A model generated the notes under the pieces. That model had not been told where the DNA came from, searched no databases, and saw only the letters and a list, made by a program, of their open reading frames with translations. From a virus: a stretch of 57,002 nt of DNA. The translations under genes were made by a program, and so were the position numbers. Location of the stretch: the IMG/VR virus record IMGVR_UViG_3300018080_000211, positions 1 to 57,002 of that record. The stretch is one strand, 5' to 3'. This document shows positions 2,960 through 50,644 of this stretch, in pieces. The stretch's first letter is position 1, and the number at the start of each line of letters is the position of its first letter.

Positions 2960-3504
2960 TCACTCACCTCACTGTCGATGGTTGCATAGACTTCAGCCAA
3001 CACATCGTATGGCATCAAGTCTTGAAGGCCAAACTTCTCGTGGCGCTCGGTCAGGAGCTTCGTGATGAGTGCTTTCAGGATTGGGCAATGCTCAAATCCC
3101 TTCTTGCGTGCCTTCCGCTCCTCGTTGAACAGTTGACTCCACATCGAGTGCTCAAAATCCTCGATGGCTTTGGTGGTGGCGTCATCCTCTTCCTTCTGAA
3201 GCTCCTCTTCCTCAACGATTTCCCACTTTCCACCCAGCTCCTCGACAAGCTCCTTGAGGTCATCGAAGAGTTGAGTGCGCTCTTTGGCGGTGATGACCAG
3301 CTCGGAGTGAACGGTGAGGCCATCGTCATCCTTTGTGAAGAAGCCTTGAACCATCGTGCCTTCGGTTTGCCAGAGGAAGAGCTGATTGGTATGGAGCGCT
3401 CCTTGATTGAACTTCAGACCGTATGCCTTGTACACCTTCTTGATTTTGTCTTTGTTGTTGCTGTACAGTTGGTCTGGCAAGATTGCCTTCTCACGCACCT
3501 TCAT
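2956..3504 (-). CDS. Hypothetical protein (182 aa)
   Basis: Start chosen at the ATG at 3504, preceded by GAGAGGTG five bases upstream; it lies 14 bases inside the upstream gene. An in-frame extension further upstream has no ribosome-binding site. The protein is charged, with a predicted helical acidic stretch (EEEELQKEEDD) in the middle. No family recognised. Confidence 0.55.
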   Translation of the reverse strand: MKVREKAILPDQLYSNNKDKIKKVYKAYGLKFNQGALHTNQLFLWQTEGTMVQGFFTKDDDGLTVHSELVITAKERTQLFDDLKELVEELGGKWEIVEEEELQKEEDDATTKAIEDFEHSMWSQLFNEERKARKKGFEHCPILKALITKLLTERHEKFGLQDLMPYDVLAEVYATIDSEVSE

Positions 3505-4396
3505 TGTAGCACCTCTCTGCAAGCACCTCGAGTGCGGTGATGACATCATCGTATGCCATTGCTTCATTCTGTATCAGCTTCAGCGCTTTCGGTTTGAAGG
3601 CTTCCCAGCCAAATTGATGCCTTGTGGTCGCATAGCCACCATCTGGATAGGTATGCTTGGTCACACGGCAATACACGACCTCTGCATTGATTAGCCTTCC
3701 CCTGCCATAGCAATCAGGGCATGGCATCATTTCAGGCATCATTCCTGTTTCGTGGTAGAGTGGGTTGTCATCTCGCTCGATGACCTGCCCTGTCCCATTG
3801 CAAATCGGACAAGGGTGTTCAGGGACATCAGCGTGGCAGCTCGGGCAACCGAGCAATCCGTCAGCGACCTGCTCCAAGCTTGCCATAGCGCAGAATGGGC
3901 AGGCATCTCCGACCTTGTTCACTGCCTTGGCTTCTGGCTTTGGTTGGGATGGGTACACACACCCCAAATCAATGAGAAGCATGTGCAACATCTCTGGCTC
4001 GGGAGTGCCGATTGTCAAAATCAGCTGCTCACCGTCAAGCTCGTGGCTCACCTTCGTGTCCTTGTGGAGCATCCCAGCTTCCTTCCGAGCGAGGATTTCA
4101 AGGTGAAGGTCTTGACTTCTCTCTTCGGTCGGTCTGACCACGAACACATCACCCTCTCTCCTGACGAGAGCGGTGGGCACTCGCTTGCCTCTCATTCGGT
4201 CGATGGCGCTGTCCAGACCGCTCCAGATGTCCTTCCACGGTCGCATCAGTATTCCATCCTTTGTCCAAGCAACCAATCCTTCCTCGCTCGTGGTGAAGTA
4301 GATTTTGTCATCTCCATCACCTGTAGCTCCGATGGAGTTGAGGAAGGGCACTTTGAACTTCCCATCCTCATACTTCTCGACAACCTGCCAATTCAT
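3491..4396 (-). CDS. Protein with a C-terminal DnaJ-like zinc-finger region
   Basis: 301 residues from the ATG at 4396, which overlaps the upstream stop and follows GGGGTGG. The first 150 residues show no recognised domain. Four Cys pairs follow: CPFC, CPSC, CPICNGTGQ and CPDCYGRGR; the last two are CxxCxGxG repeats of the DnaJ zinc-finger kind. Together with the 89-residue gene at 1273, this operon carries two such modules but no J domain, so they are probably nucleic-acid or protein-binding adaptors. Confidence 0.6.
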   Translation of the reverse strand: MNWQVVEKYEDGKFKVPFLNSIGATGDGDDKIYFTTSEEGLVAWTKDGILMRPWKDIWSGLDSAIDRMRGKRVPTALVRREGDVFVVRPTEERSQDLHLEILARKEAGMLHKDTKVSHELDGEQLILTIGTPEPEMLHMLLIDLGCVYPSQPKPEAKAVNKVGDACPFCAMASLEQVADGLLGCPSCHADVPEHPCPICNGTGQVIERDDNPLYHETGMMPEMMPCPDCYGRGRLINAEVVYCRVTKHTYPDGGYATTRHQFGWEAFKPKALKLIQNEAMAYDDVITALEVLAERCYNEGA

Positions 4397-5307
4397 CTGT
4401 CCCACCCCTTTGGACTGTAGATGTCAAGCACTTTGTCCACATGCTCTGTCCTGATGCGCTTGACCTCGACAAACCAAGCCTGCTCATCGAGTTTGGCCTG
4501 CCAAATCCAATCTGCGACCTCGAGCGCCTTGCCCTTTTTGGTGTAGTCCACAATGGCGCAGCTCTCATCTCCCTTCAGGCGCACATGCCCTTTCGGGAAG
4601 TATGTGTTCATTAGCAGGACATCAGTCAGCTCTTCCTTCATTCCGAGCTTCTGAAGGCAGCGCTTGCAATTGACCTGCTCCTTGACATTGGTCTCATGGA
4701 TGTAGTTGCCTGTTGTGTAGGTCGTGCCGCACCACAGCTGGCCATAGCCATTGCCACCCTCTCCGCACCAGTGGAAGATTGGAATGTCAGCTTCATTCCT
4801 GTACTTGTTCGCATACTCGAGGAAGTCAGGCAGCTTGTCGTCAGCGTTGACGGGCAGCACCCAACCAACAACCACCGACTTCTCCCTGACCTCGAGCACC
4901 TGAAGGTTGTACTCGGAAATCCACTTGCGGTCATCCTTCCGCTCGAATGTGTCACCCCAAAACTCGAATGGCGCAGACTCGCTCACATTCGCCCACTCAT
5001 TGACTCGAGTGGTCTTGAAGTGCACCTTTGAGCCAACATCTGGGATGGCCTTCTGGCGCTCCTTGTCGCAGCAGTCCACCATCACCTTCAGCTCCTCTCG
5101 AGCTTCGCCATTGACCTCGACTTCCTCGAGCAGTAAGAAGTATTTCATGTGGCTCTCGGTCTGGTCATATCCGAAGCTCTGCGTGTAGGTCTTGATGCGA
5201 CCGATTTGCTTGGCTATTCCAACGACATCATTCTTGTAGCTGCCGTGGTTCCAATTCTTGTCGTTGTCGCTGTAGGTGGCATCCATGTCCTTCTTGTGCT
5301 TCCTCAC
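4393..5307 (-). CDS. Hypothetical Cys/Trp-rich protein (304 aa)
   Basis: Starts with GTG overlapping the stop of the preceding 45-codon gene (GTGA). The body is rich in Trp and acidic residues. WCGEGGNGYGQLWCG with CKRC 26 residues later suggests one zinc site. The largest unknown gene of the left operon; no family recognised. Confidence 0.55.
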   Translation of the reverse strand: MRKHKKDMDATYSDNDKNWNHGSYKNDVVGIAKQIGRIKTYTQSFGYDQTESHMKYFLLLEEVEVNGEAREELKVMVDCCDKERQKAIPDVGSKVHFKTTRVNEWANVSESAPFEFWGDTFERKDDRKWISEYNLQVLEVREKSVVVGWVLPVNADDKLPDFLEYANKYRNEADIPIFHWCGEGGNGYGQLWCGTTYTTGNYIHETNVKEQVNCKRCLQKLGMKEELTDVLLMNTYFPKGHVRLKGDESCAIVDYTKKGKALEVADWIWQAKLDEQAWFVEVKRIRTEHVDKVLDIYSPKGWDR

Positions 5308-6081: not shown

Positions 6082-6360
6082 TCAATCCTCACCAAGCTCG
6101 ATGACTTCATCATCACTGGATTTGGGTGCAGATTTTGGAGTGGGCTTGGCCTTCGATTTTTTGGGCTTGTCATCCAGCATGTCGGAGCAACCGTCACAAA
6201 AGATTTCCCGACCTGAACCTTGCCATCCATGTCTTGTCTTTGCTTTCATCACCGCATCCTTCCTGTCAAGCTCGGCAGGGAAGATGAGTGTGCCTTTGCA
6301 TCTTGCGCAGCTGATGGAATAGACCAGCTGACCTTCCTTTATCGCAACTCCTGCTCTCAT
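6082..6360 (-). CDS. Zinc-ribbon protein with acidic ELGED tail
   Basis: 92 residues from the ATG at 6360 (GAGGTG eight bases upstream). Cys pairs CARC and CDGC, about 38 residues apart, form a zinc ribbon. A basic Lys/Pro linker (KPKKSKAKPTPKSAPKSS) follows, ending in DDEVIELGED. Nearly the same tail closes the clamp, the Sak4-like ATPase and the SSB-like protein of the replication operon, so this protein probably acts at the replication fork although it is transcribed separately. Its own promoter (CCAGAAAG class) lies at about 6390-6415. Confidence 0.65.
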   Translation of the reverse strand: MRAGVAIKEGQLVYSISCARCKGTLIFPAELDRKDAVMKAKTRHGWQGSGREIFCDGCSDMLDDKPKKSKAKPTPKSAPKSSDDEVIELGED

Positions 6361-6389
6361 AGGGTTCACACCTCACTGAAGGGAGATTT

Positions 6390-31382: not shown

Positions 31383-31403
31383 GAGTGAGGTCAGGCCTCA
31401 CTC
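31383..31403 (-). terminator. Perfect hairpin terminator of the Topo VI-A-like gene
   Basis: GAGTGAGG pairs with CCTCACTC, loop TCAGG, overlapping the stop codon. On the minus strand it is followed by CATTTTTTTT. Confidence 0.75.
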
Positions 31404-33566
31404 GTTGTCCTCTTCGTCAGTGTCGTCATCCCAGTCGGTGTCATTTGACTCGGTGTCATCCTCGTCATCCTCGACCTGCTGGTGCTTGCCCTCATCGATG
31501 TCTGACTCAACCTGCTCCTTCAAGCGCTCGAGGTCATCCATCAGGTCATCCATCTCTGGTGGGTCAGGATAATCAACCTCAACGCCATCTCCTGCCTCGT
31601 GGAGTATTGTCTTCATCGCTGAAAGGAAGTCAGGAGTGAAGCCACGCCTGTGGGGTTCAACCGTGTGGCTCTTCGCACCTGCTGCCTTGGCCAAGCAATC
31701 CTTCTCGGTGAACACTGGGAAGGTGTCCTGCTCCCACGCTGACTCGTCATCCTCGAGGAGTGCGCTTGGGTCGGTCATCAGCTTGGCGACATGTGGCTGT
31801 GTGCGTCCATCTGCCTCGATGTCCCTGTATCTGAAGTCAAGCTCTCCCTCGAGCGCATCATTGACCGCTTCCCGCAGCTCGATGTCCACTGGGTTGAAGT
31901 TGGCTTCCTGCCACCTCTTGAACTCATCGAGCTTCGACTGTCTGTATTCACCTCGTGCCCTGATTTCTGCCATGTTCTCGTTGTGCTCTGCGTTTGGCTC
32001 TTCCAACTCTTGGCGCTCCCTCTCGTTGATGTCGCTGACTCGCTCGTTGTGGCGCTCCCACGCTGCCTCGATTTCGCTGAACTGCTCCTCGCAAGCTGTG
32101 TGGATGTCATCATTGATGTCCGAGCGCTCCTGTTCCAGCGCTGCAATCTCTGCCTCAATCTCGGTCAGGCGCACATCGTGGCCTTGCTCCTCTTTGTAGG
32201 CATCGATAATCTCCTGCTGGTCATCCTCTTCATCCTGCGCTGTGTCGTTTGACTCATCACGCTCTTCCTCATAGCGCTCTTGGATTGGGTCAATGATTTC
32301 GTGCCACCTGCTCCTCTCTGCCTCTCGCTCCTCTTCGGTCTTGGTGTTGAACCAAGCTTCCAACTCGTCAGCCTGACTCAAGAAGGCTTCGATGATTGGC
32401 TTCAACCAGTCCTCTTTATGATGCTCGAAAATCTCCTCAACGACTTCCTTGCCGACCTTGGCGAAGATGCGCATGATTTCAGGTATCATAATCAAGCTCT
32501 CGTCAGAAGTGGCTCTGATGATTTTCAGAAGCTCCTCGAGTATGTTGCGCTCGATGACAGACATTGGGAAGGCATCCAACTCGACCTTTGCCCTGTAGCG
32601 CTGGCCACCCTCTGTCTTATACAAGCCACCGTTTGTCTGCTCGCAGAAGTATGCCCACTTGGTGTCCTCTGCCTTGCGTGCCCTCTCGTTGCTGGCTCCA
32701 ACATCTTCGCACTTCATCGCTTTGTGCCTCAAGATATTCTCGGTGATTTGCTCTGGCCTCACGAACAAGCGCCTTATCCTGACAGAAGCGCAGCTGCCGT
32801 AATACTCGAGTGCCTTCTCAATCTGGTTCTTGAAGCTCTCTTGGATGTAGTATCCAGCTGGGTCAAGGTCGCTGATTGTGCACATGTAGATGTCCTGATT
32901 GATGTCCACACCAGCTTCCTGAAGCTCCTCGACCAGCTGCTTGGCATAGCTCCTCGACACGCTCCTTGAAGGCTGGCCACCTGCGGTGATGAGAGTCGAG
33001 TTAAACAGTTCAGGTATCCACTCGAATGCCTCAAACAGATTTTCCTTCTCAACCGCTATCAGCAGGTTGGAAAATGGGCTGTCCCTGATGAAACTCCTGC
33101 GCACATTCTCTTTGGCGCTGACGATGTTCATACCTTCGTATGTCACAAGGCCAGAGTCCACGAGATTTGCCCAAGCAGTGTTTATCGCTCCTGCCACTGA
33201 ACTTGTCTCACCCATCCGCAGAACATCTTCCACAAGGAATTTTATGTGGGTGTACCAGAAGTGCCTCACATTGCCTTCCTCGAGAGTTGTGCCCTCATCC
33301 CTGTAGGCTTCCCATATGACCGCTCTCATAACATCGAGCAGACAGAAATCCAAGCCAGCTCTCCTGCCGTTTGCATCTGGGGGGAACACCTCACAGATTT
33401 CCTCATAAGTCATTCCTTCGCTGACAACCTCGATGTCGAGCTGCTGTCCATCCTCGCTCTCGATGACCTCGCATATCGTGGTTATCTGCTTGTCACATTC
33501 AATCAAGTTGAACCTCTTGATTGAGCCCTTGTATTCATATTCGATTTTCCGTGTTCTTATTTCCAT
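31398..33566 (-). CDS. Stand-alone Topo VI-A / Spo11-like protein with long coiled coil
   Basis: 722 residues. Residues 75-160 form the winged-helix part with RHFWYTH (candidate catalytic Tyr 105). The Toprim part has AVEKENLF (Glu 173) and ISDLDPAGYY (Asp 233, Asp 235), the metal-binding signature of Topo VI-A and Spo11. Residues about 330-722 are long Glu/Arg-rich helices (coiled coil), then an acidic tail, far beyond the usual 370-residue length. No B (ATPase) subunit is encoded. The family of such orphan A-type proteins on mobile elements has been described as Mini-A. Likely a DNA cleavage or relaxing enzyme at replication or recombination. Own promoter; GAGGTG then ATG. Confidence 0.75.
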   Translation of the reverse strand: MEIRTRKIEYEYKGSIKRFNLIECDKQITTICEVIESEDGQQLDIEVVSEGMTYEEICEVFPPDANGRRAGLDFCLLDVMRAVIWEAYRDEGTTLEEGNVRHFWYTHIKFLVEDVLRMGETSSVAGAINTAWANLVDSGLVTYEGMNIVSAKENVRRSFIRDSPFSNLLIAVEKENLFEAFEWIPELFNSTLITAGGQPSRSVSRSYAKQLVEELQEAGVDINQDIYMCTISDLDPAGYYIQESFKNQIEKALEYYGSCASVRIRRLFVRPEQITENILRHKAMKCEDVGASNERARKAEDTKWAYFCEQTNGGLYKTEGGQRYRAKVELDAFPMSVIERNILEELLKIIRATSDESLIMIPEIMRIFAKVGKEVVEEIFEHHKEDWLKPIIEAFLSQADELEAWFNTKTEEEREAERSRWHEIIDPIQERYEEERDESNDTAQDEEDDQQEIIDAYKEEQGHDVRLTEIEAEIAALEQERSDINDDIHTACEEQFSEIEAAWERHNERVSDINERERQELEEPNAEHNENMAEIRARGEYRQSKLDEFKRWQEANFNPVDIELREAVNDALEGELDFRYRDIEADGRTQPHVAKLMTDPSALLEDDESAWEQDTFPVFTEKDCLAKAAGAKSHTVEPHRRGFTPDFLSAMKTILHEAGDGVEVDYPDPPEMDDLMDDLERLKEQVESDIDEGKHQQVEDDEDDTESNDTDWDDDTDEEDNE

Positions 33567-33654: not shown

Positions 33655-34647
33655 TCAACCCAAGTGTTTGAGCAGAGAATTTGACCGCTTCACGATGGCC
33701 TTTGTTGCCTTGATTTTCTTGCTTGTGCCCATAACCTTCCTTGGCTTCACTTCGACCTTCCGCTTTTGCGCTCTCGCTTTGAATTCTCCCTTTGGCCTTC
33801 TGACTTCACCTCTGTGTCGCTGAAGCTCCATAACGGCAAAGGCATGAGCCCACAATCGATAGTTGCCTGTCTGCTTTGCAACCGTGAGCCAAACATCGAC
33901 ATCACGCAATATATGATGAATTTTATTTTGATACACAAATCTTAAAAGCTCCTCTGGAGCTATCTTCAACCGCTCTGAACCAACCTCTCCTCGCAACATC
34001 GCTCCAATCAGCTCGAGCTTGTTGCCCTCTTTGTCATCTGCGAATGCTTCCCCATATGCGTCAAAGAAGAGATTGTTCAACAAATCTCGGAAGCTCTCGC
34101 TTGACTCCACAACCTTCTTTAAATCCCATGGCTCAATGCCTTCCTCTTCAATGATTTCCTTCGCCAATGAAAGCTTTTGCATGTCTGTCGGTTTTTTCAT
34201 CTCGAGCTTGAGCGAAATCTTCTGAAGGTCAAGGATGATTTTGTCCATGTCATTGACCAGCAATATCATTGGTTGTTTCAGGAGCTTTGCCTTGGACACG
34301 AGGAGCTGCTGGGCGCTCTTCGTGAGGTTGTCTGCTTCGTCAAGTATCGTGAGGCGCTTCTTTTTGTCGAGTCCAGCCACACCAGTGAACTGTATCGCTC
34401 TCTTGATTTGTCCCACATTCCGCTCATCGCTTGCGTTCAGCTCGGTGATGGCGCAATCGAAATCAGCAGCAAGACAATGGGAGAGTGTCGTTTTGCCAAT
34501 TCCAGACCTTCCATGGAGTATTAGGATGGGCAGCGGTGCTCGACCTTTCCAGTGCATTTCCATCCACCTCTTCGCAGCGCTCACGATGTTGCGATTGCCG
34601 ATGAAATCCTTCAGTGATTTCGGTCGATACATCTCTGTCCAAATCAT
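33655..34647 (-). CDS. rfcL: Replication factor C large-subunit-like clamp loader ATPase
   Basis: 330 residues. Starts WTEMYRPKSLKDFIGN as RFC proteins do; Walker A HGRSGIGKTTL (about 46), Walker B LTILDEADNL (about 100), NASDERN conserved block. The region after the AAA+ core is helical, ending in a basic tail (RAQKRKVEVKPRKVMG to the end). Shorter than cellular RfcL (usually over 400). With RfcS it would load the clamp. Its start overlaps the end of polB; last gene of the replication operon. Confidence 0.85.
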   Translation of the reverse strand: MIWTEMYRPKSLKDFIGNRNIVSAAKRWMEMHWKGRAPLPILILHGRSGIGKTTLSHCLAADFDCAITELNASDERNVGQIKRAIQFTGVAGLDKKKRLTILDEADNLTKSAQQLLVSKAKLLKQPMILLVNDMDKIILDLQKISLKLEMKKPTDMQKLSLAKEIIEEEGIEPWDLKKVVESSESFRDLLNNLFFDAYGEAFADDKEGNKLELIGAMLRGEVGSERLKIAPEELLRFVYQNKIHHILRDVDVWLTVAKQTGNYRLWAHAFAVMELQRHRGEVRRPKGEFKARAQKRKVEVKPRKVMGTSKKIKATKAIVKRSNSLLKHLG

Positions 34648-37040
34648 CCTCGCTTCACCCCTATCTTGCCTGTGTCGAGGTATGCTGTGAGATTGGATTG
34701 TTTCAGGCCTGTCATAATCTCCTCGATACTCATGCCGAGCGCTTCGAGGATTGGCTCACTTGGGAGCACAATATGCCTTCTGACATTGTTCGGAATATCG
34801 AAGATGACACCGAAGCCTATTGGGTCATCATCCCAATCAAGTGCAACAACATCGGTCTTGGGTTTGCCTTCCACTGTCCCGAGATACACCCAGAAGCTAT
34901 CCCCACGCTTGTAATTCTTGCCGAGATAGGTGTTGCTGTAATTGGGCGCTCTGACCTGTGGCACATCAGTCTTGTATTCCTTTCGCCACGACATCGGGAT
35001 TGCCAATTTTTGTGGGTTTATGGTGGCTTCCTCGATGGATTGGATGGCCTTCTTTATCAGAGGTCGCACCTTCTCGACCTTCCCTTCAACGATGAGTTGG
35101 AAGAGCTTCTTTTGAAGCGCCTTTGTAAGCCTGCTGCTGTCCCTTCGTTTTGAGTGCGCTCCCTTGATTATCATCCGCTTCTCGATTGGGACATCACGCA
35201 CATCTTGTCCATCCCAAATCGGCACTTGGATGTATCGCTTTTTTCTGCCCCATTGAAACACGACCTCATTGATTGTTTCGAGCTTGATTTCAAAGTGGTG
35301 GCTCTCCGCATTCAATCTGCCAGCAAGCTTCTGGAAGGATTTGTTGATGTGTTTGACGGTCTTGTCGCATGCTCTCTTCAACTTGTCAAGCTCCCAATCT
35401 TCAGAGTCTGGGAATGTGAACAGAATTCCATCGGTGTCGCCATACCAGACTTTGAAGCCAGAGCGCTCGAGGATACCAATCACCCAAGCAATCATCATCC
35501 TGACAGTGCCTGTAATATCACTGCCGACCTTCCCTGCGTTGAGTCGGAAGTAATCGCTGCCCATTACACCATAGAGAGAGTTGGTGAAGAATTTGAGCAC
35601 CTCTTGTTCATCCTTCAACTCTGTATATTCATCGCTGTTGTATTCACAAGCGTGCATCCGCTCCCTTAATTGATAGCGCTCGTCAACGAGCTGGTCATAA
35701 ATTATTGGCACCAATCCTCGTGGCTTTTTGGAATAGCAGCGCCCACTCGGTGCAACGAAGTAATCGCCATCAGGCTTCGGAGATTTGACATATGTTTCCT
35801 GCGAATAATTCCCTGTTCTGACAGCGTTTGGATATGCTGTCTTCAAGTCCAAATAAATAGCCTTCCGAATGAGTCCAGTGAAGGCTTCTCCAACCCACCC
35901 ACCTTTGTCAATGCCTTTGCCCTGCTCGAGTGAGGCAACTGTTGGCAGCACGAGATAGCTATGACATTTGTGAAGGAAGTATGCGTCAGCCAATTTGCTG
36001 TTCTGGGCAAACACCTCAATCGAGCTTCCACACTTCTGGCACAAACCGATGAAGAAGCCTGTCAGATTTTTCTTGTCTATGAGTCGGTCAACCAACTCCA
36101 AATCTTTGATGTTGTAAATGAGGAGCTTTGCCATGTCTGTCCTGTACAACTCACTGATTGTCGTGCGCTCGACCTTCCCCTCACCAAGCTCCTGTTGTGA
36201 CACATAATCGAGGTGAAGGTCATCTGGCGTGCCAACATATCGTTTGACATACATCGCAAGCGTGTCCATCCGTGCGAAGTCATCCCAATTTGGACAGGTG
36301 AACTTCCTGCTCGGAGTCTTGGCACGCTCTCGCAGATAGTCGAGGTCATAATTGATGTTCCAATTCGTGATAATGTCAGGTGGATTCAATTGGAAGTATT
36401 GAGTGATAGCCATGAACAACCGCTTCTCATCCTTGTAGCTCCTCAATTTGATTTTGGCATTCGGATATGCTGCCTTGATTTTGTCATAGTCCACCTTGCT
36501 TCCTTCGGTGAACAGAATGGTGTAGGTGTTGCTGGCTTTATCCCATATTCCGACCACCAGCACTTCAGCGGTCGGATACTTGGGCAGAGCGAGTCCAAGC
36601 TCATCCTCATTCTCGATGTCCACAATGGCGATGTTCGGTGGTATCGGTTTGCAGTCCAAAGGTTTAATGTCCTTCGGATAAATCACCTCACGGTCTGGCA
36701 CTTCGATTGTGTGCCAAATCCCATGGTCATATCTCACCCTATCCTCATACAAAATATCAGCCTCATAGGTGATGGGATACTTGTTGCGGATACTCGGCAC
36801 ATTGAATGGAAAATCGACATACACCTTCAACAGTGGATTGTTATCAATGTCCACTCCCTCTTCGACTATCTCGGTGATGCAATTATCGTTTGGAAGCTTC
36901 TTTGTCTTTGGAATGTACAAATATGGTCGAGTGCCCTTGAGCACCTTGTGTACACGCTTCCCATCCTCTCCTCGACCGAAGAGATGAACCAGAAGCTCTC
37001 CCTTGACTTCATAGCGGATTTTGTAGATGGTGCACTTCAT
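34644..37040 (-). CDS. polB: Family B DNA polymerase
   Basis: 798 residues from ATG 37040. Exonuclease motifs: AIVDIENED (Exo I), NWNINYDLDYL (Exo II), YNIKDLELVD (Exo III), all acidic residues present, so proofreading should work. Polymerase motifs: LDLKTAYPNA (A; the usual DxxSLYPS is altered), FFTNSLYGVMGSD (B), WYGDTDGILF (C), GRKKRYIQV. The typical length and absence of a terminal-protein domain suggest an RNA-primed replicase. Preceded by RfcS, followed by RfcL. Confidence 0.95.
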   Translation of the reverse strand: MKCTIYKIRYEVKGELLVHLFGRGEDGKRVHKVLKGTRPYLYIPKTKKLPNDNCITEIVEEGVDIDNNPLLKVYVDFPFNVPSIRNKYPITYEADILYEDRVRYDHGIWHTIEVPDREVIYPKDIKPLDCKPIPPNIAIVDIENEDELGLALPKYPTAEVLVVGIWDKASNTYTILFTEGSKVDYDKIKAAYPNAKIKLRSYKDEKRLFMAITQYFQLNPPDIITNWNINYDLDYLRERAKTPSRKFTCPNWDDFARMDTLAMYVKRYVGTPDDLHLDYVSQQELGEGKVERTTISELYRTDMAKLLIYNIKDLELVDRLIDKKNLTGFFIGLCQKCGSSIEVFAQNSKLADAYFLHKCHSYLVLPTVASLEQGKGIDKGGWVGEAFTGLIRKAIYLDLKTAYPNAVRTGNYSQETYVKSPKPDGDYFVAPSGRCYSKKPRGLVPIIYDQLVDERYQLRERMHACEYNSDEYTELKDEQEVLKFFTNSLYGVMGSDYFRLNAGKVGSDITGTVRMMIAWVIGILERSGFKVWYGDTDGILFTFPDSEDWELDKLKRACDKTVKHINKSFQKLAGRLNAESHHFEIKLETINEVVFQWGRKKRYIQVPIWDGQDVRDVPIEKRMIIKGAHSKRRDSSRLTKALQKKLFQLIVEGKVEKVRPLIKKAIQSIEEATINPQKLAIPMSWRKEYKTDVPQVRAPNYSNTYLGKNYKRGDSFWVYLGTVEGKPKTDVVALDWDDDPIGFGVIFDIPNNVRRHIVLPSEPILEALGMSIEEIMTGLKQSNLTAYLDTGKIGVKRG

Positions 37041-37116
37041 GCTTGCACCCACGAGGCAGAATGGAGCGAGGTGTGAACTTGGAAAAATTCACGGCCATTC
37101 CCCTCGAGGTTTGTGC

Positions 37117-44533: not shown

Positions 44534-45781
44534 TCATAGATGTGCCAACAAGTCTGGCTTCGACTTCCTGCGCTTCCAGATTACCATCCCATCGCTATCC
44601 TCACCAGCTGCGTCAATATAAAAGTTGTCATATAAATCTCGCATGCCGTACATTTTTTCATCCACCTCATTCCACAATCGCTTCATGAGTTGATAATCCT
44701 TTTTGTTGTACAGAACTGGCGAAGCTTCCACCATGTCCTTCCAGCGCACTTCACCCTTCTCTTTGAGAACAGCGCAAGCGTGTCGGAATGTGAACTTGTT
44801 GAAGCCATCTGGCCATATCAGGTCGATGCCGCAACAACTCTCACACGCACTGTCGTATGGCATATTGACCCAATCAGCGCTCGAGGTCGGAATGCCATAT
44901 GACTTGAACAACTTCATTATCCTTTGTGCGTTGGGCTTCCATGGTTCATCCGCATTGGCCTTCCACATTCGCTCGAAGTCAAACCCTGCCTTCTCGAATT
45001 TGACTTTGGCCATTGGCCTTCTGGAGCTGTGATAATTGTAGAATGTAATGTGTTGGCAACCGCTCTCAACCGCTTCCTCTGCATATGCCCGCAGCTCCTC
45101 TTCACTGTCATTGATTGTTGGCATTACTGGTTCATGTTTTACAGCAGCCCATATACCACTGTCATTCAAGGTCTTGATGGCCTTCCATCTGGCCTTCGGT
45201 GTAGGTGCTTTTGGCTCGAGCTTCCTGATTTTTTCAGGTGTCCCTGCTATGATGGATATGACTGGAGCTGCTTTCATCTCCGAGATTACATCAAAGTATG
45301 GCGATTTTGCTGGAAGGTCTGATTTGACGAGTAGTAGAACGGGGTGGTCATAATCCTTGAATAGATTAAGGATTTTCAGTGTTATCTCCTGCTCTCGCTC
45401 GATTGGTAGCATGAATGGTTCAGAGCGCACGCCAAGACCGAAGGCAATGCCCATCCGCAGACCGAGTGCTATTTTGTTCTTGGTCTGCTTCTCGGAATAG
45501 GCAAGTGCGAGCATCTTCTCATACTGCTTCAAATCAGCTGGGCGCACCGTGTTGGGAGTCCAGTTGTCATAGTAGGCAGGGAAGATAGTGCTTTCAAGCT
45601 CTCGACAGAAACAGAAGGTGCAGTGGATACTACACCCATGATAACTGTCGCCACCGAGCGCTTGGGGGCACACATGCTGGTCGCCACGAATGAACATGGG
45701 CTGCTTGAACTTCTCGGGAAGCTCTCGCTTGTTGCCATCGGTCTGGCGCTGGAAGTAAAAGTCAAACTCTTTGTCAGGCAT
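44534..45781 (-). CDS. SPL/SplB-like radical SAM protein, canonical cluster motif
   Basis: 415 residues. Canonical CSIHCTFC (Cys 50, 54, 57) for the 4Fe-4S cluster, then FCRELEST and AYYDNW. LGVRSEPFMLPIE, SIIAGTPEKIRKLEPKAPTPKARW and GIWAAVKHEPVMP match the SPL-family barrel. The ATG shares one base with the stop of the clamp gene (TAATG). SPL enzymes split thymine dimers by abstracting hydrogen; relatives in phages have been proposed to modify bases. Two such genes in tandem in a virus operon are striking. Confidence 0.8.
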   Translation of the reverse strand: MPDKEFDFYFQRQTDGNKRELPEKFKQPMFIRGDQHVCPQALGGDSYHGCSIHCTFCFCRELESTIFPAYYDNWTPNTVRPADLKQYEKMLALAYSEKQTKNKIALGLRMGIAFGLGVRSEPFMLPIEREQEITLKILNLFKDYDHPVLLLVKSDLPAKSPYFDVISEMKAAPVISIIAGTPEKIRKLEPKAPTPKARWKAIKTLNDSGIWAAVKHEPVMPTINDSEEELRAYAEEAVESGCQHITFYNYHSSRRPMAKVKFEKAGFDFERMWKANADEPWKPNAQRIMKLFKSYGIPTSSADWVNMPYDSACESCCGIDLIWPDGFNKFTFRHACAVLKEKGEVRWKDMVEASPVLYNKKDYQLMKRLWNEVDEKMYGMRDLYDNFYIDAAGEDSDGMVIWKRRKSKPDLLAHL

Positions 45782-46701
45782 TAGTCCTCACCAAGCTCAA
45801 GGTCATCGTCATCGTCATCCTCTTCGCTCTCTTCCTCGACCTCTTCAGCTTCCTCGCTTCCTTCCTCGCTTTCTGACTCGTCATCATCCTCTTCTTCAGC
45901 TTCCTCTTCTTCACGCTCACGCTCTGCTTGCACCTCATCGTATTGAGCAACGAGATAACCAACTGTCAGGTTGTCCCCTTCCTTCAGTATCCAGATGGGA
46001 TGCTCTATGTCTTGACCGTACAAGGATATGCTTCCAGAAAGCACCGACATCACTTCAGCGAAGTTGCTGCCAAGGATTATCTCAAATCCCTTCTTGACCT
46101 TTGCATCGAGCGGTCGAGCTATTCCTGTTGCATGCGCTTCCATCGAGCCAATCAGTGCAAGGCTTCCCTTTTTGTTGAAGGTCAACCTGACAACCTTGAT
46201 TTCCTTCTGGCCATACACAAGCGTTGTCGGTGATAGGATTGCGTTGATTTCACTGGCCTTGATTTTGACCTCGCTCCATTCCATCTCGCCAAGCACTGGC
46301 AGGTTGTCCTTGACCTTCAACTGTGAGGCATCTTCAATCCTCGCAGCGTCAGCATCGCTGGGGGTGAGTTGAGCTTCATACTTATCACCCTTCAAGTGCA
46401 CGGTCGTGCCTCTGTGTTGGATGGTAATCTCCTCATCATCACCAAAGAGCTTATTGACCCAATCGACAAGCTCTGCGTCAATGACATATTGACCGCTCTT
46501 GCCCGTGAGCTTCAGCTTCTCCGCTTTGCCCCAAGTGAATGCTGTATGGTCGCTGGTAATCCATGACCAAGCAATCGACTTCTTTTTTATGTTCACTTCA
46601 GCTATCAGCGGTGAGAACAGTGCTGAACCACCGCTCTCTCTGGCAGTCATCTTGCTGATAAGACCTGCCACCGCTCCTGCTTTGCCTTTCAATTCAAACA
46701 T
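45781..46701 (-). CDS. PCNA-like sliding clamp with acidic ELGED tail
   Basis: 306 residues; the first 250 form the clamp, the rest a Glu/Asp tail ending DDLELGED. Clamp-like features: two similar halves, SLALIGSMEAHATG (middle), FEIILGSNFAEVMSVL and NLTVGYLVAQYDEV near the end of the second half. The tail is the same type as in the Sak4-like and SSB-like genes. A GAGGTG site precedes ATG 46701. The fold call rests on pattern, length and its clamp-loader partners. Confidence 0.6.
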   Translation of the reverse strand: MFELKGKAGAVAGLISKMTARESGGSALFSPLIAEVNIKKKSIAWSWITSDHTAFTWGKAEKLKLTGKSGQYVIDAELVDWVNKLFGDDEEITIQHRGTTVHLKGDKYEAQLTPSDADAARIEDASQLKVKDNLPVLGEMEWSEVKIKASEINAILSPTTLVYGQKEIKVVRLTFNKKGSLALIGSMEAHATGIARPLDAKVKKGFEIILGSNFAEVMSVLSGSISLYGQDIEHPIWILKEGDNLTVGYLVAQYDEVQAEREREEEEAEEEDDDESESEEGSEEAEEVEEESEEDDDDDDLELGED

Positions 46702-46713
46702 TTTTTCACCTCA

Positions 46714-47730
46714 TTACAAATCTCCAAGTTCAATCTCTTCTTCATCGTCATCGCTGTCTTGCTGCTTCTCTGGTGCTCCCTTTGGCTTCTCTGCGCTCTT
46801 CGACTTCTTGCCCTTGTACTTCTGCAACCAACTGAAGCTCGGCATCTTAACGCCACGCTTCTTGGTGTCCTTCTTGAGCATCTCACCATACTTCTCGAGG
46901 AAGGCTGTGAAGCTCTTCTCGGGAAGCACGAGCTTTGTGAAGTTGTGCGTCAAGCTCCGAAGCTTCCTGCTGTCTGCGAACCATTTGCCTTTGTCATAGT
47001 ACAGGCGCAGGATAAAGTCCACTCTCGCATCATTGCCCTTCTGACCAGCTGCCACGACCTTCTCGACTTCCATATCACCCTCTTGAAATTTGCGAGTCGT
47101 TGGGTGAGCTGTCCATAGTAGATTGTACTCACCTCGAGCTGCTTTGTTTGCAAGCTCATTGTGTAGTGGGTTGATGTTTCGATAGTCCAGCATTTGGTCG
47201 AGCGCTGGAAGAGTCTTTTTGCCTCGTGCATAAGCTTCCTCTTGGCGCTCCATCAGGAGCTGAACATATGGTATGCGATAGGTTGCTTCAACATAATCTC
47301 GCTGACAGAAATACCAGACACTGCCCATGTTCTCTATGACCAGCCAGCCATCCATTCCTGTTTCAGCTTTATGCTCAATCAGGCGCTGGTCAAAGATTTT
47401 GAAAGCATCATAGACCTGCCAGATGTCATCGCACTTCGCATACTGTATGCACTCCTGATACTCGAGAGGAATGATTTGAGAGAAGAGGAGAGGTGCAACA
47501 CCTTCCTTGTCGCAGTCAATGAAGCAGAGCAGGATTTTATCGAGAGGTATGCCCATCACCTCGTGCATGTGAGTGATTAGTTGTAGGATGAAGTTTGATT
47601 TGCCTGACCCAGCCATTCCTTCGAGCTGGATGCGAAGCACATTGAAATCCTTCCCTTTATCCGCTCCTGACACGATGTTCACGCATGACTTCCCTGCCAT
47701 GCTCTTCTTCAATGAATCAGCGATTGACAT
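46714..47730 (-). CDS. Sak4/RecA-like P-loop ATPase (recombinase) with ELGD tail
   Basis: 338 residues. EGMAGSGKSNFILQL is Walker A; DGWLVIENMG Walker B; the rest fits AAA_24/Sak4-type phage single-strand-annealing ATPases (AAGQKGNDARVDFILRLYYDKGKW block). The C-terminus is basic, then acidic, ending EEEIELGDL. It would help pair homologous strands, probably with the SSB-like protein encoded just upstream. Start after GAGAGGTGAGGAAC. Confidence 0.7.
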   Translation of the reverse strand: MSIADSLKKSMAGKSCVNIVSGADKGKDFNVLRIQLEGMAGSGKSNFILQLITHMHEVMGIPLDKILLCFIDCDKEGVAPLLFSQIIPLEYQECIQYAKCDDIWQVYDAFKIFDQRLIEHKAETGMDGWLVIENMGSVWYFCQRDYVEATYRIPYVQLLMERQEEAYARGKKTLPALDQMLDYRNINPLHNELANKAARGEYNLLWTAHPTTRKFQEGDMEVEKVVAAGQKGNDARVDFILRLYYDKGKWFADSRKLRSLTHNFTKLVLPEKSFTAFLEKYGEMLKKDTKKRGVKMPSFSWLQKYKGKKSKSAEKPKGAPEKQQDSDDDEEEIELGDL

Positions 47731-47743
47731 TGTTCCTCACCTC

Positions 47744-48907
47744 TCAATCTTCTCCAAGGTCAATCATTCCACCGTCATCATCGTCATCGTCATCTTCCTT
47801 CTTGGGCTTCTTGGTGGGCTTCTTTTTGTCCTTCTTTTTGGGCTTGGGCTTCTCTTCCTCTTCCTCTTCCTCTGCCTCAAGCTCCTCATCATCGTCATCG
47901 ACCTCTTCGCTGTCCTGCTCTTCCTCTTCCTCATCTCCAGACAGGTCAACCTCGCTCTCATCGTCAAGTGGCTCATCTTCCTCTTCGTCATCCACCTCTT
48001 CGACCTGTTCCCTTGGGATTGGAATTATTGGAACAATGACATTCGCTGTCATCCCAACTCTGCCCTCATCATCCTTGTCTATCTGACCCAAGAAGAGCAG
48101 TGAGCTTCCTTCAGCATAGAGCACCTGCGATTTGTCCACCATGATGGACAGGCCACCGTGCTTCTTGATGTCCTCAATATCGAGGGAGTCGTCAATGCAG
48201 ACAAACCTGCCATATGTGTATCCGCTCTGGGATGTCATGACGGCAGCATATGTCACATCTCCTCGAATGAGTCGCATATCGCTCCTGACCTTCTTGTTGC
48301 ATACATTGAACTCTGCGTCAGCAATCGGCACGACCTTGAAAAGCTCCTGCAAGACCTCATCTGGATTTGCATCCATCTGCTCCTCGCTCTCCTTGAAGTG
48401 AGTCAGACCTTCGATTGCTCCAAGCTCAAAGATGCCTTTCACGAGGTCGAGAGTGCATTGCGCTTTGTAGGTCATTCCACGCTCGACTTCCTCGACAAGC
48501 TTGGTGTTGTCATCGAACATCACGAGTGAAAAATATTTCAGCTCTTGCTCGGAGTCGGTCGCATCCTCATCGATGCATACACCCAGCCCATAGATGTCAG
48601 CCCTGTCGTATGGCTCTTTGCTCTTGTCCTTCGGTGTTATCCTTCTCGGTTTGGTGAAGTCCAAAACCAATAGCTCCATCTCACGACCTCTCCTGACGAG
48701 TGGGGTGGTGTGTGTTGCTTTCAATATTCTCAAGGCATGCTCGACCTTCGCATCATCCTCGAAGGATTTCAATACAGGCTTTTTTATAATTGTCTTCAAT
48801 TCCTTCGTGAGTTCATCCATTACTTCTTTTGTCTTCCTGCCTGATGCTTCGGCAAGTGCCTTTGCCCAGTTTTTAAGCTCTGCGGCTTGCTTCTTTTTTA
48901 TTTTCAT
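47744..48907 (-). CDS. SSB/RPA-like protein with very long acidic tail
   Basis: 387 residues. Residues 70-300 contain at least two beta-rich segments that fit OB folds (MELLVLDFTKPRRIT, DIYGLGVCIDEDA, TYKAQCTLDL; then VVPIADAEFNV, GRFVCIDDSLD, LLFLGQIDKDD). From about 305 the protein is Asp/Glu-rich with a Lys/Pro stretch, ending GGMIDLGED. The plan (OB folds, then flexible acidic tail with a short end motif) is that of single-stranded-DNA-binding proteins. Sequence-level homology to a family not certain. Second gene of the long replication operon. Confidence 0.5.
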   Translation of the reverse strand: MKIKKKQAAELKNWAKALAEASGRKTKEVMDELTKELKTIIKKPVLKSFEDDAKVEHALRILKATHTTPLVRRGREMELLVLDFTKPRRITPKDKSKEPYDRADIYGLGVCIDEDATDSEQELKYFSLVMFDDNTKLVEEVERGMTYKAQCTLDLVKGIFELGAIEGLTHFKESEEQMDANPDEVLQELFKVVPIADAEFNVCNKKVRSDMRLIRGDVTYAAVMTSQSGYTYGRFVCIDDSLDIEDIKKHGGLSIMVDKSQVLYAEGSSLLFLGQIDKDDEGRVGMTANVIVPIIPIPREQVEEVDDEEEDEPLDDESEVDLSGDEEEEEQDSEEVDDDDEELEAEEEEEEEKPKPKKKDKKKPTKKPKKEDDDDDDDGGMIDLGED

Positions 48908-49210: not shown

Positions 49211-50644
49211 TCAATCAGCCTTCTTCAACCACTTGGGAAGCTTCTTGAGTTTAATCATCGGTGCTGTGCCCTGATATGACCGCTCAAATAATCCTTCATC
49301 TTCCATCTTCCTGACTCGCTGGGATGCAGTTTTTTTGCTGACATTCCAATAATCTGAATGCGATAGCGTGCGGATGAAATCAGCTCTCTTAATTGTATCA
49401 CCATCCTTCCGCTTCAGCTTCTTGATAGTGCTCTTGTAGAGTCGCACTGCCTCGCTCACCTGCATCTTCCAAACTCGCTGGTGGTCTTTGGGTGGCGCAA
49501 TCCCTTCCTCGAGAAGTCCAATCAGCTGCTTCCAGACTGGCATCACATAATTCTTGGCATAGCCTACATCTTCAAGCTTGAGCGTGTCATCGAGTCGGAG
49601 AAGCATATGATGCCAAGCCAATCGCCATATGTGTTCAATCCATCGCTGGCTGAACTCTTCGAGCTTCCTGCGAGGATATTCAGCGATGCCCTCGAATTGT
49701 ACAAAGAATTCATCGACCAATCGAACAAGGATTTTGAGCGCTTCAGGTTGAACCTTGACCACGATTTTATCCTTGCCCATCCAATACTCGTTGACATACT
49801 TCAACCGCTTGGCGAGGTCTGACATGCCTTGCTTCTTGTCCACCTTGCTTTCCAGCAGGCCTGTAAGCTCCTTGGCCACCTCAATCCTATCTTCTGTTGT
49901 GAACTCGTTGTACAGGATTACCATGCGCTGAAGAAATCCTCGCTTGACGATGGTGTCATAAAAACTGTCAGGTGGATAGGACATCAGCATGAGTGAGCAA
50001 TCGGGATTAAATTCAATCCACTCTCCATGCGCAAGCTTCTTGGTGAGCTTGTTGTCCTCTGTGTCCATCGTATTGAGGGCAATCTGATAGTACAGCATAG
50101 CATTTTTCTTGTACTCATTCTGAATTCCACTGAACAGAATATCTGCCTCATTCATTGCGATGATGTTCGCAATCGGTCTGTCTGGGTCATCCTCGTCAAA
50201 GGTTGGGTCAAGTACACCTCTCTCAATCCTGCTCACGACCTCGATGCCCTTCTTTTCAGGATTGTATTCTTTGACCTCATCGCTTGTACCAATGAGAGCA
50301 GCGTCAGTTATCTCGGTGATGACACAATAGTTGAGCCCAAGCGCTCGAGCAACTTGTGCCATGAAATTGAATCCACGACCGCCACCGCTCCCTGATGGCT
50401 TGAAGAAGCAACCTGAAATCCGCAGGTCGAGGTCATTTGCTCCGACATGAATGCGAAGCTTCTTGACCGCAGGGAGCTGACCAATGATACAATGTAGCGT
50501 CAGCTCTGCGAAGTTGGGCTGTCGTTTGACTCGCTCCTCGAATAATGATACATACAATTTTATTAAATTCTGTCCAAAAAATTCCTTGCGTTGTTTCGGT
50601 GTAGGTGGATTGCTCCACTTGGGCATATGCTCTTGCCACTTCAA
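49211..50644 (-). CDS. Helicase-like AAA+ protein (DUF3987-like) with altered P-loop
   Basis: 477 residues. FFKPSGSGGGRGFNFMAQVA has the P-loop layout, but the usual GKS/GKT Lys is replaced (GGGRG). NIIAMNEADILF is Walker B-like and GFLQRMVILYNEF fits the Arg-finger block of DUF3987/MCM-like replicative helicases. The last 90 residues are a winged helix. If ATPase-active it would be the replicative helicase; the missing Lys makes this uncertain. TTG start with GAGAGGAGCG upstream; last gene of a two-gene operon. Confidence 0.5.
   Translation of the reverse strand: MKWQEHMPKWSNPPTPKQRKEFFGQNLIKLYVSLFEERVKRQPNFAELTLHCIIGQLPAVKKLRIHVGANDLDLRISGCFFKPSGSGGGRGFNFMAQVARALGLNYCVITEITDAALIGTSDEVKEYNPEKKGIEVVSRIERGVLDPTFDEDDPDRPIANIIAMNEADILFSGIQNEYKKNAMLYYQIALNTMDTEDNKLTKKLAHGEWIEFNPDCSLMLMSYPPDSFYDTIVKRGFLQRMVILYNEFTTEDRIEVAKELTGLLESKVDKKQGMSDLAKRLKYVNEYWMGKDKIVVKVQPEALKILVRLVDEFFVQFEGIAEYPRRKLEEFSQRWIEHIWRLAWHHMLLRLDDTLKLEDVGYAKNYVMPVWKQLIGLLEEGIAPPKDHQRVWKMQVSEAVRLYKSTIKKLKRKDGDTIKRADFIRTLSHSDYWNVSKKTASQRVRKMEDEGLFERSYQGTAPMIKLKKLPKWLKKAD

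Follow-up and report, generated by a model that had tools for sequence, protein, structure and literature searches.

The window analysed here, a stretch of 57,002 nucleotides of viral DNA, bears a 123-bp exact terminal repeat at its ends and is thus taken to be a complete virus genome. Four unrelated proteins encoded in it, all on the minus strand, end in a near-identical short acidic peptide. The genes and tails concerned are the following:

45781-46701, minus strand: clamp-like protein of 306 aa, with a body of ~260 residues and an acidic extension of ~45 residues
45781-45807, minus strand: its C-terminal tail DDLELGED and stop codon
46714-47730, minus strand: Sak4-like ATPase of 338 aa, with the Walker A motif GMAGSGKS
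46714-46743, minus strand: its C-terminal tail EEEIELGDL and stop codon
47744-48907, minus strand: SSB-like protein of 387 aa, with a long acidic and lysine-rich tail
47744-47773, minus strand: its C-terminal tail GGMIDLGED and stop codon
47927-47965, minus strand: a copy of the motif inside the SSB-like protein, DDESEVDLSGDEE
6082-6369, minus strand: zinc-ribbon protein of 95 aa with a GTG start, consisting of two CxxC motifs, a K/P/S linker and the tail
6082-6114, minus strand: its C-terminal tail DDEVIELGED and stop codon

The last six residues are LELGED in the clamp-like protein, IELGDL in the Sak4-like ATPase, IDLGED in the SSB-like protein and IELGED in the zinc ribbon, giving the consensus [I/L]-[D/E]-L-G-[E/D]-[D/L]; the longer C-terminal stretches are, in the same order, DDDDDDLELGED, DDDEEEIELGDL, DDDDDDDGGMIDLGED and SSDDEVIELGED. 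An earlier note on this DNA had pointed to these tails, and all four are confirmed in the window sequence at the genes named, with two corrections: the Sak4-like tail ends in GDL, not GED, and the zinc-ribbon open reading frame extends from 6082 to 6369. The clamp-like, Sak4-like and SSB-like genes are adjacent, the zinc-ribbon gene lies ~40 kb away from them, and no structural protein carries the tail. The linkers ahead of the tails, rich in K, P and S in the Sak4-like, SSB-like and zinc-ribbon proteins and purely acidic in the clamp-like protein, are probably disordered, as is usual for docking tips.

The shared tail is specific. When all six frames of the window were searched for an acidic stretch followed by [ILVM][DE]L(x)G[DE], only five occurrences were obtained, corresponding to the four C-termini and to the copy inside the SSB-like protein, and no further convincing window gene has such an end. 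Acidic C-termini exist elsewhere in the window (e.g., 31398-33566) without the L-G motif. As a background, gene prediction on the viral contigs that had been fetched gave 1504 genes, only two of which match the tail, both in loci retrieved by means of the motif. When the last 10 residues are shuffled, the probability is 0.002-0.004 per tail and the product 6e-11, a post hoc value, calculated when the motif was already known. The strict form [DE][DE]h[DE]LGED-stop, sought in 2.9 million viral contigs, yielded nine DNA matches, four of them in frame and never two in one contig, although this is a partial yardstick, given that only the clamp version of the four tails fits the strict form. The six-frame and background-gene counts support the tail as a feature in its own right, and not as something that arises wherever a C-terminus happens to be acidic.

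At the DNA level, synonymous codons vary among the tails (GGT/GGA for Gly, GAG/GAA for Glu, GAC/GAT for Asp), and thus it is the peptide that is kept. Leu, in turn, is encoded by CTT in all four tails, a triplet that accounts for 23% of Leu codons, and 14 bases, GAGCTTGGTGAGGA, are common to the clamp and zinc-ribbon tails; together these features may be a weak hint of copying. That the tails arose by chance, or from a short piece of DNA copied without a selected function, can nevertheless hardly be believed, since the background rate is practically zero, the other codons differ, and the four copies are placed exactly at protein ends and in frame. There is likewise next to no probability that the tails are in-frame readings of ribosome-binding sites, of the archaeal GGAGGTGA type, that serve downstream genes. 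The Gly-Glu codons do look like such sites, and in the clamp tail GGTGA sits 6 bases ahead of the ATG of the next gene; however, a full GAGGTGA is present downstream of the stop codon at the SSB-Sak4 and Sak4-clamp junctions, so that the tail is not needed for this purpose there, no convincing gene follows the zinc ribbon, and the I-[DE]-L part would be left unexplained. This reading is contradicted for three of the four tails, and only the GGTGA of the clamp could serve a downstream gene.

The family B DNA polymerase (PolB) of the window is nearest, among named phages, to those of haloarchaeal tailed viruses. Clamp-loader-like (RFC) proteins, a small-subunit-type primase and an ERCC4 nuclease are also encoded, and ribosome-binding sites of the GAGGTGA type are used. 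Taking these features together, the virus is most likely an archaeal tailed virus. No tRNA genes were found in the window. Three products of the minus strand have to be considered as candidate readers of the tail:

49211-50644, minus strand: helicase-like ATPase near the SSB gene, with a suggested C-terminal winged helix
40191-41321, minus strand: small-subunit-type primase (DNA_primase_S at E 0.0024, below the cut-off; halovirus gene 95 at E 3e-17)
34644-37052, minus strand: family B DNA polymerase, with a PIP-box-like QSNLTAYL near its own C-terminus

IIAMNEA is conserved in the helicase-like ATPase, whose degenerate P-loop, SGSGGGRG, is devoid of the usual Lys; a comparison of this protein with halovirus MCM gave no match. 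Two further observations concern other parts of the minus strand. The replication region between 38418 and 45781 encodes a PLP enzyme nearest to the "threonine dehydratase" of the Pseudomonas phage PAE1 type, an LPG_synthase_C/FemAB-like acyltransferase and a pair of radical-SAM-like proteins, of which one has a Pfam match. We take this set to resemble an M6-like phage pathway for the hypermodification of thymidine, here in an archaeal virus. The protein at 3491-4405 has a zinc domain similar to the CXXCXGXG type of DnaJ (1e-6, below the cut-off).

Relatives of the virus were found through a terminase Walker pattern followed by a terminase alignment scan. Terminase identity to the window reaches 75% in L098, 63% in G001-G003 and ~36% in G004 and G005. 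Single-protein scans with Sak4 and PolB retrieved no relatives and a PolB DNA pattern none either; the PolB alignment scan gave distant viruses only, in none of which tblastn detected a relative of the tail-bearing proteins, and alignment scans of bacterial and archaeal genomes with the helicase-like and Sak4 proteins gave none. G003, a genome of 53 kb that looks complete by its terminal repeat, has structural genes in common with the window, many of them at ~50-73% identity, as well as an exonuclease and the helicase-like ATPase (49% identity). In this genome SSB, Sak4, clamp, PolB, RFC and zinc ribbon were undetected by tblastn, and no LGED-type tail was found. G005, an 81-kb relative, contains the helicase-like ATPase (40% identity), SSB, Sak4, clamp and primase in the same order as the window; one of its loci (L110:1896-4040) encodes a DNA methyltransferase with a probable intein (Intein_splicing just below the cut-off, LAGLIDADG). 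Profile comparison also revealed a homologous module, again in the same order, in the Druskaviridae haloviruses (HCTV-1 genes 99, 98, 96 and 95), with E values of 6e-7 for SSB, 1.4e-13 for Sak4, 4e-6 for clamp (hhalign E 4.4e-6) and 3e-17 for primase, mismatched pairs giving nothing. Genes 99, 98 and 96 of HCTV-1 (L002:10619-14552), which are annotated as hypothetical, appear by homology and order to be SSB-like, Sak4-like and clamp-like.

The names given to the tagged proteins derive largely from these comparisons. The clamp-like protein is homologous to G005 L108:6936-7730 and to HCTV-1 gene 96; it has no match to Pfam or to the PCNA family, and a PDB search returned nothing useful. Its profile matches T4 gp45 weakly (probability 11%) and halovirus PCNA not at all, halovirus PCNA and gp45 being also unmatched to each other. 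It is a putative clamp, named for its position, its homology to the syntenic halovirus protein and the PCNA-like last strand of its G005 homologue. The Sak4-like ATPase is so called for a Pfam AAA_24 match (E 4.6e-4, below the cut-off), its P-loop, its synteny and its SSB-like neighbour, and it is homologous to halovirus gene 98, an AAA protein; a RecA-like fold is putative. For the SSB-like protein, homologous to halovirus gene 99, both SSB identity and an OB fold are suggested by gene order and distant homology, PDB and Pfam searches with it and with the helicase-like protein having given nothing useful. AF2-type models built from two-sequence alignments reached a pLDDT of 33 for the clamp-like and 42 for the SSB-like protein. 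The zinc ribbon, at most a putative replication protein, has no homologue in the loci searched.

The exact LGED occurs in none of the relatives found, G005 being the only one outside the haloviruses that has the genes, and the halovirus homologues of SSB, Sak4 and clamp show no comparable tip. In G005, the SSB ends in DDAIDLTDF, Sak4 in DEEDIEW and the ERCC4 nuclease in DDEIEW; since IEW is common to the last two, this virus too repeats a tip on several proteins. The clamp homologues of G005 and of three haloviruses stop at the last strand without a tail, and thus the clamp tail is an added extension in the window virus. The internal motif of the SSB-like protein, in turn, aligns with AIDLTDF, the C-terminal end of the SSB of G005, which suggests that the window SSB was lengthened past an older tip. 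Judged on G005, which is fairly distant, and on distant haloviruses, the exact tag would be lineage-specific and fast-changing, with an acidic-[IL][DE][LW] core apparently staying on SSB and Sak4 in both the window virus and G005. Other C-terminal tips were observed in these genomes. In G005 (L108, L110, L103), PIP-like ends are found on PolB (QSSLEEFW), RFC (SKGLDNFF) and methyltransferase-like proteins (SETIGDYF, AETLNDYF), suggesting that the methyltransferases ride on the clamp. In HCTV-1 (L002) and HCTV-5 (L041), about six proteins of the replication region end in [VP]L[DES][FWY] (SVLDF, DPLDF, VLSW). Repeated C-terminal tips may therefore be common in these viruses.

Peptides of this kind have been described in other replication systems. 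The T4 proteins gp43, gp55 and gp33 bind gp45 through highly similar hydrophobic-acidic C-termini, which some of their relatives lack (PMC2988020); in phage HK620, Sak4 is recruited by the final six residues of the SSB (PMC5928155); and the acidic tails of T7 gp4 bind basic patches on gp5 (PMC12593628). By analogy with these precedents, we find it rather probable that the tail serves as a short linear peptide for docking on one replication partner, and we infer both the docking and the single partner. The linkers, presumably disordered, would expose a run of negative charges and then [IL]-[DE]-L-G-[ED]-[DL], and a single pocket, basic at its rim and with a hydrophobic hole accommodating I/L and L, would bind whichever of the proteins is needed. 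In this way, clamp, recombinase, ssDNA-binding protein and zinc-ribbon factor might be brought to a common partner at the fork, or compete for it. Taking into account that G005 keeps these enzymes together with the acidic-[IL][DE][LW] core on SSB and Sak4, the partner is most likely a viral replisome enzyme maintained with the module, that is, the helicase-like ATPase (49211-50644), the primase or the polymerase; the clamp, being tagged itself, is an unlikely hub. The earlier note had read the tails as ligands of one hub protein, and had named as evidence to the contrary a motif frequent at random acidic C-termini or tails not conserved in close relatives. Such a frequency was not found, and a specific tail on the proteins of one replication and recombination module is supported; conservation of the exact LGED did not hold in the relatives found, while the SSB and Sak4 of G005 carry a different acidic-hydrophobic tip. 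The T4 case shows that a shared tip can do without conservation inside its phage family (PMC2988020).

The main alternative to these three readers is Sak4, whose own tail would dock on a neighbouring subunit, for oligomerisation or self-inhibition, with SSB, clamp and zinc ribbon mimicking that tail. BRC repeats, which mimic the Rad51 interface, offer an analogy for the recruitment of Sak4 by tail mimicry. The common core on the Sak4 and SSB tips of the window virus and G005 would agree with this proposal, as would the binding of HK620 Sak4 to the last six residues of its SSB (PMC5928155); we regard it as unlikely, however, because the Sak4 tips differ strongly (IELGDL in the window, DIEW in G005), and the passages considered from that study mention no such tip on HK620 Sak4. 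It is also unlikely that there is no common partner and that each acidic tail folds onto its own nucleic-acid site as a DNA mimic tuning affinity, as phage SSB tails do. The acidity of the tails is indeed strong, with 10-29 D/E among the final 40 residues, and removal of the tail of the Enc34 phage SSB alters its DNA selectivity (PMC5686142), but simple electrostatics would not call for a common L-G motif whose spacing from the terminus is constant, and other acidic C-termini of the window, such as that of 31398-33566, do without it. Finally, a tag for sorting, degradation or localisation, whose reader would be a factor of the host or the virus outside the replisome, would account for bearers of different roles, the distant zinc ribbon included, and a host-specific reader would fit the fast change between relatives; with three of the four bearers encoded by adjacent replication and recombination genes and no structural protein tagged, we consider it quite improbable.

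If the preferred reading of a docking peptide is taken further, it is possible, though doubtful, that the tail is a private peptide code, in which one pocket collects all four proteins and tag and pocket change together quickly, giving LGED here and LTDF and IEW in G005. Should this be true, the replisomes of co-infecting viruses could be kept apart. A peptide of about ten residues could be used as a bait for the hub, and would offer a simple way into the replisome of uncultured tailed viruses of archaea.

Among known systems, the likeness to T4 is evident: in both, one hydrophobic-acidic C-terminal peptide, borne in near-identical form by three or more unrelated proteins of a single virus, is not conserved across the family, and in gp55 the tip likewise sits on a divergent linker (PMC2988020). 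In T4, however, the hub is the clamp, whereas here the putative clamp bears the tag, and the sequence differs. The bacterial SSB-Ct (DDDIPF) and the HK620 SSB tip (NDYPPF; PMC5928155) also combine an acidic stretch with a hydrophobic tip, with the SSB encoded beside Sak4, but the tails studied here end in ED or DL without the terminal Pro-Phe or Phe (the G005 SSB ends in DF), and occur on Sak4, clamp and zinc ribbon as well. T7 similarly has acidic C-terminal tails on different replication proteins, gp4 (PMC12593628) and gp2.5 (PMC5686142), that interact with the polymerase; those of gp4 are described as charge-driven, in contrast to the fixed [IL][DE]LG motif. The PIP box (Q-x-x-[ILM]-x-x-aromatic-aromatic) is also a short replication docking motif present on many proteins, seemingly including PolB, RFC and methyltransferases of G005, but the four tails have neither Gln nor an aromatic pair. 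In the Druskaviridae module (HCTV-1 genes 99-95), the SSB-like, Sak4-like, clamp-like and primase proteins all have homologues, and gene order is conserved, but there is no LGED tail and the clamp lacks the extension. Thus, shared docking tips were already known from T4 and T7, and what is new here is a different sequence and its presence on a putative sliding clamp as well; if confirmed, it would join T4 as a case of one virus marking several replication proteins with the same tag, the clamp being here a client and not the hub.
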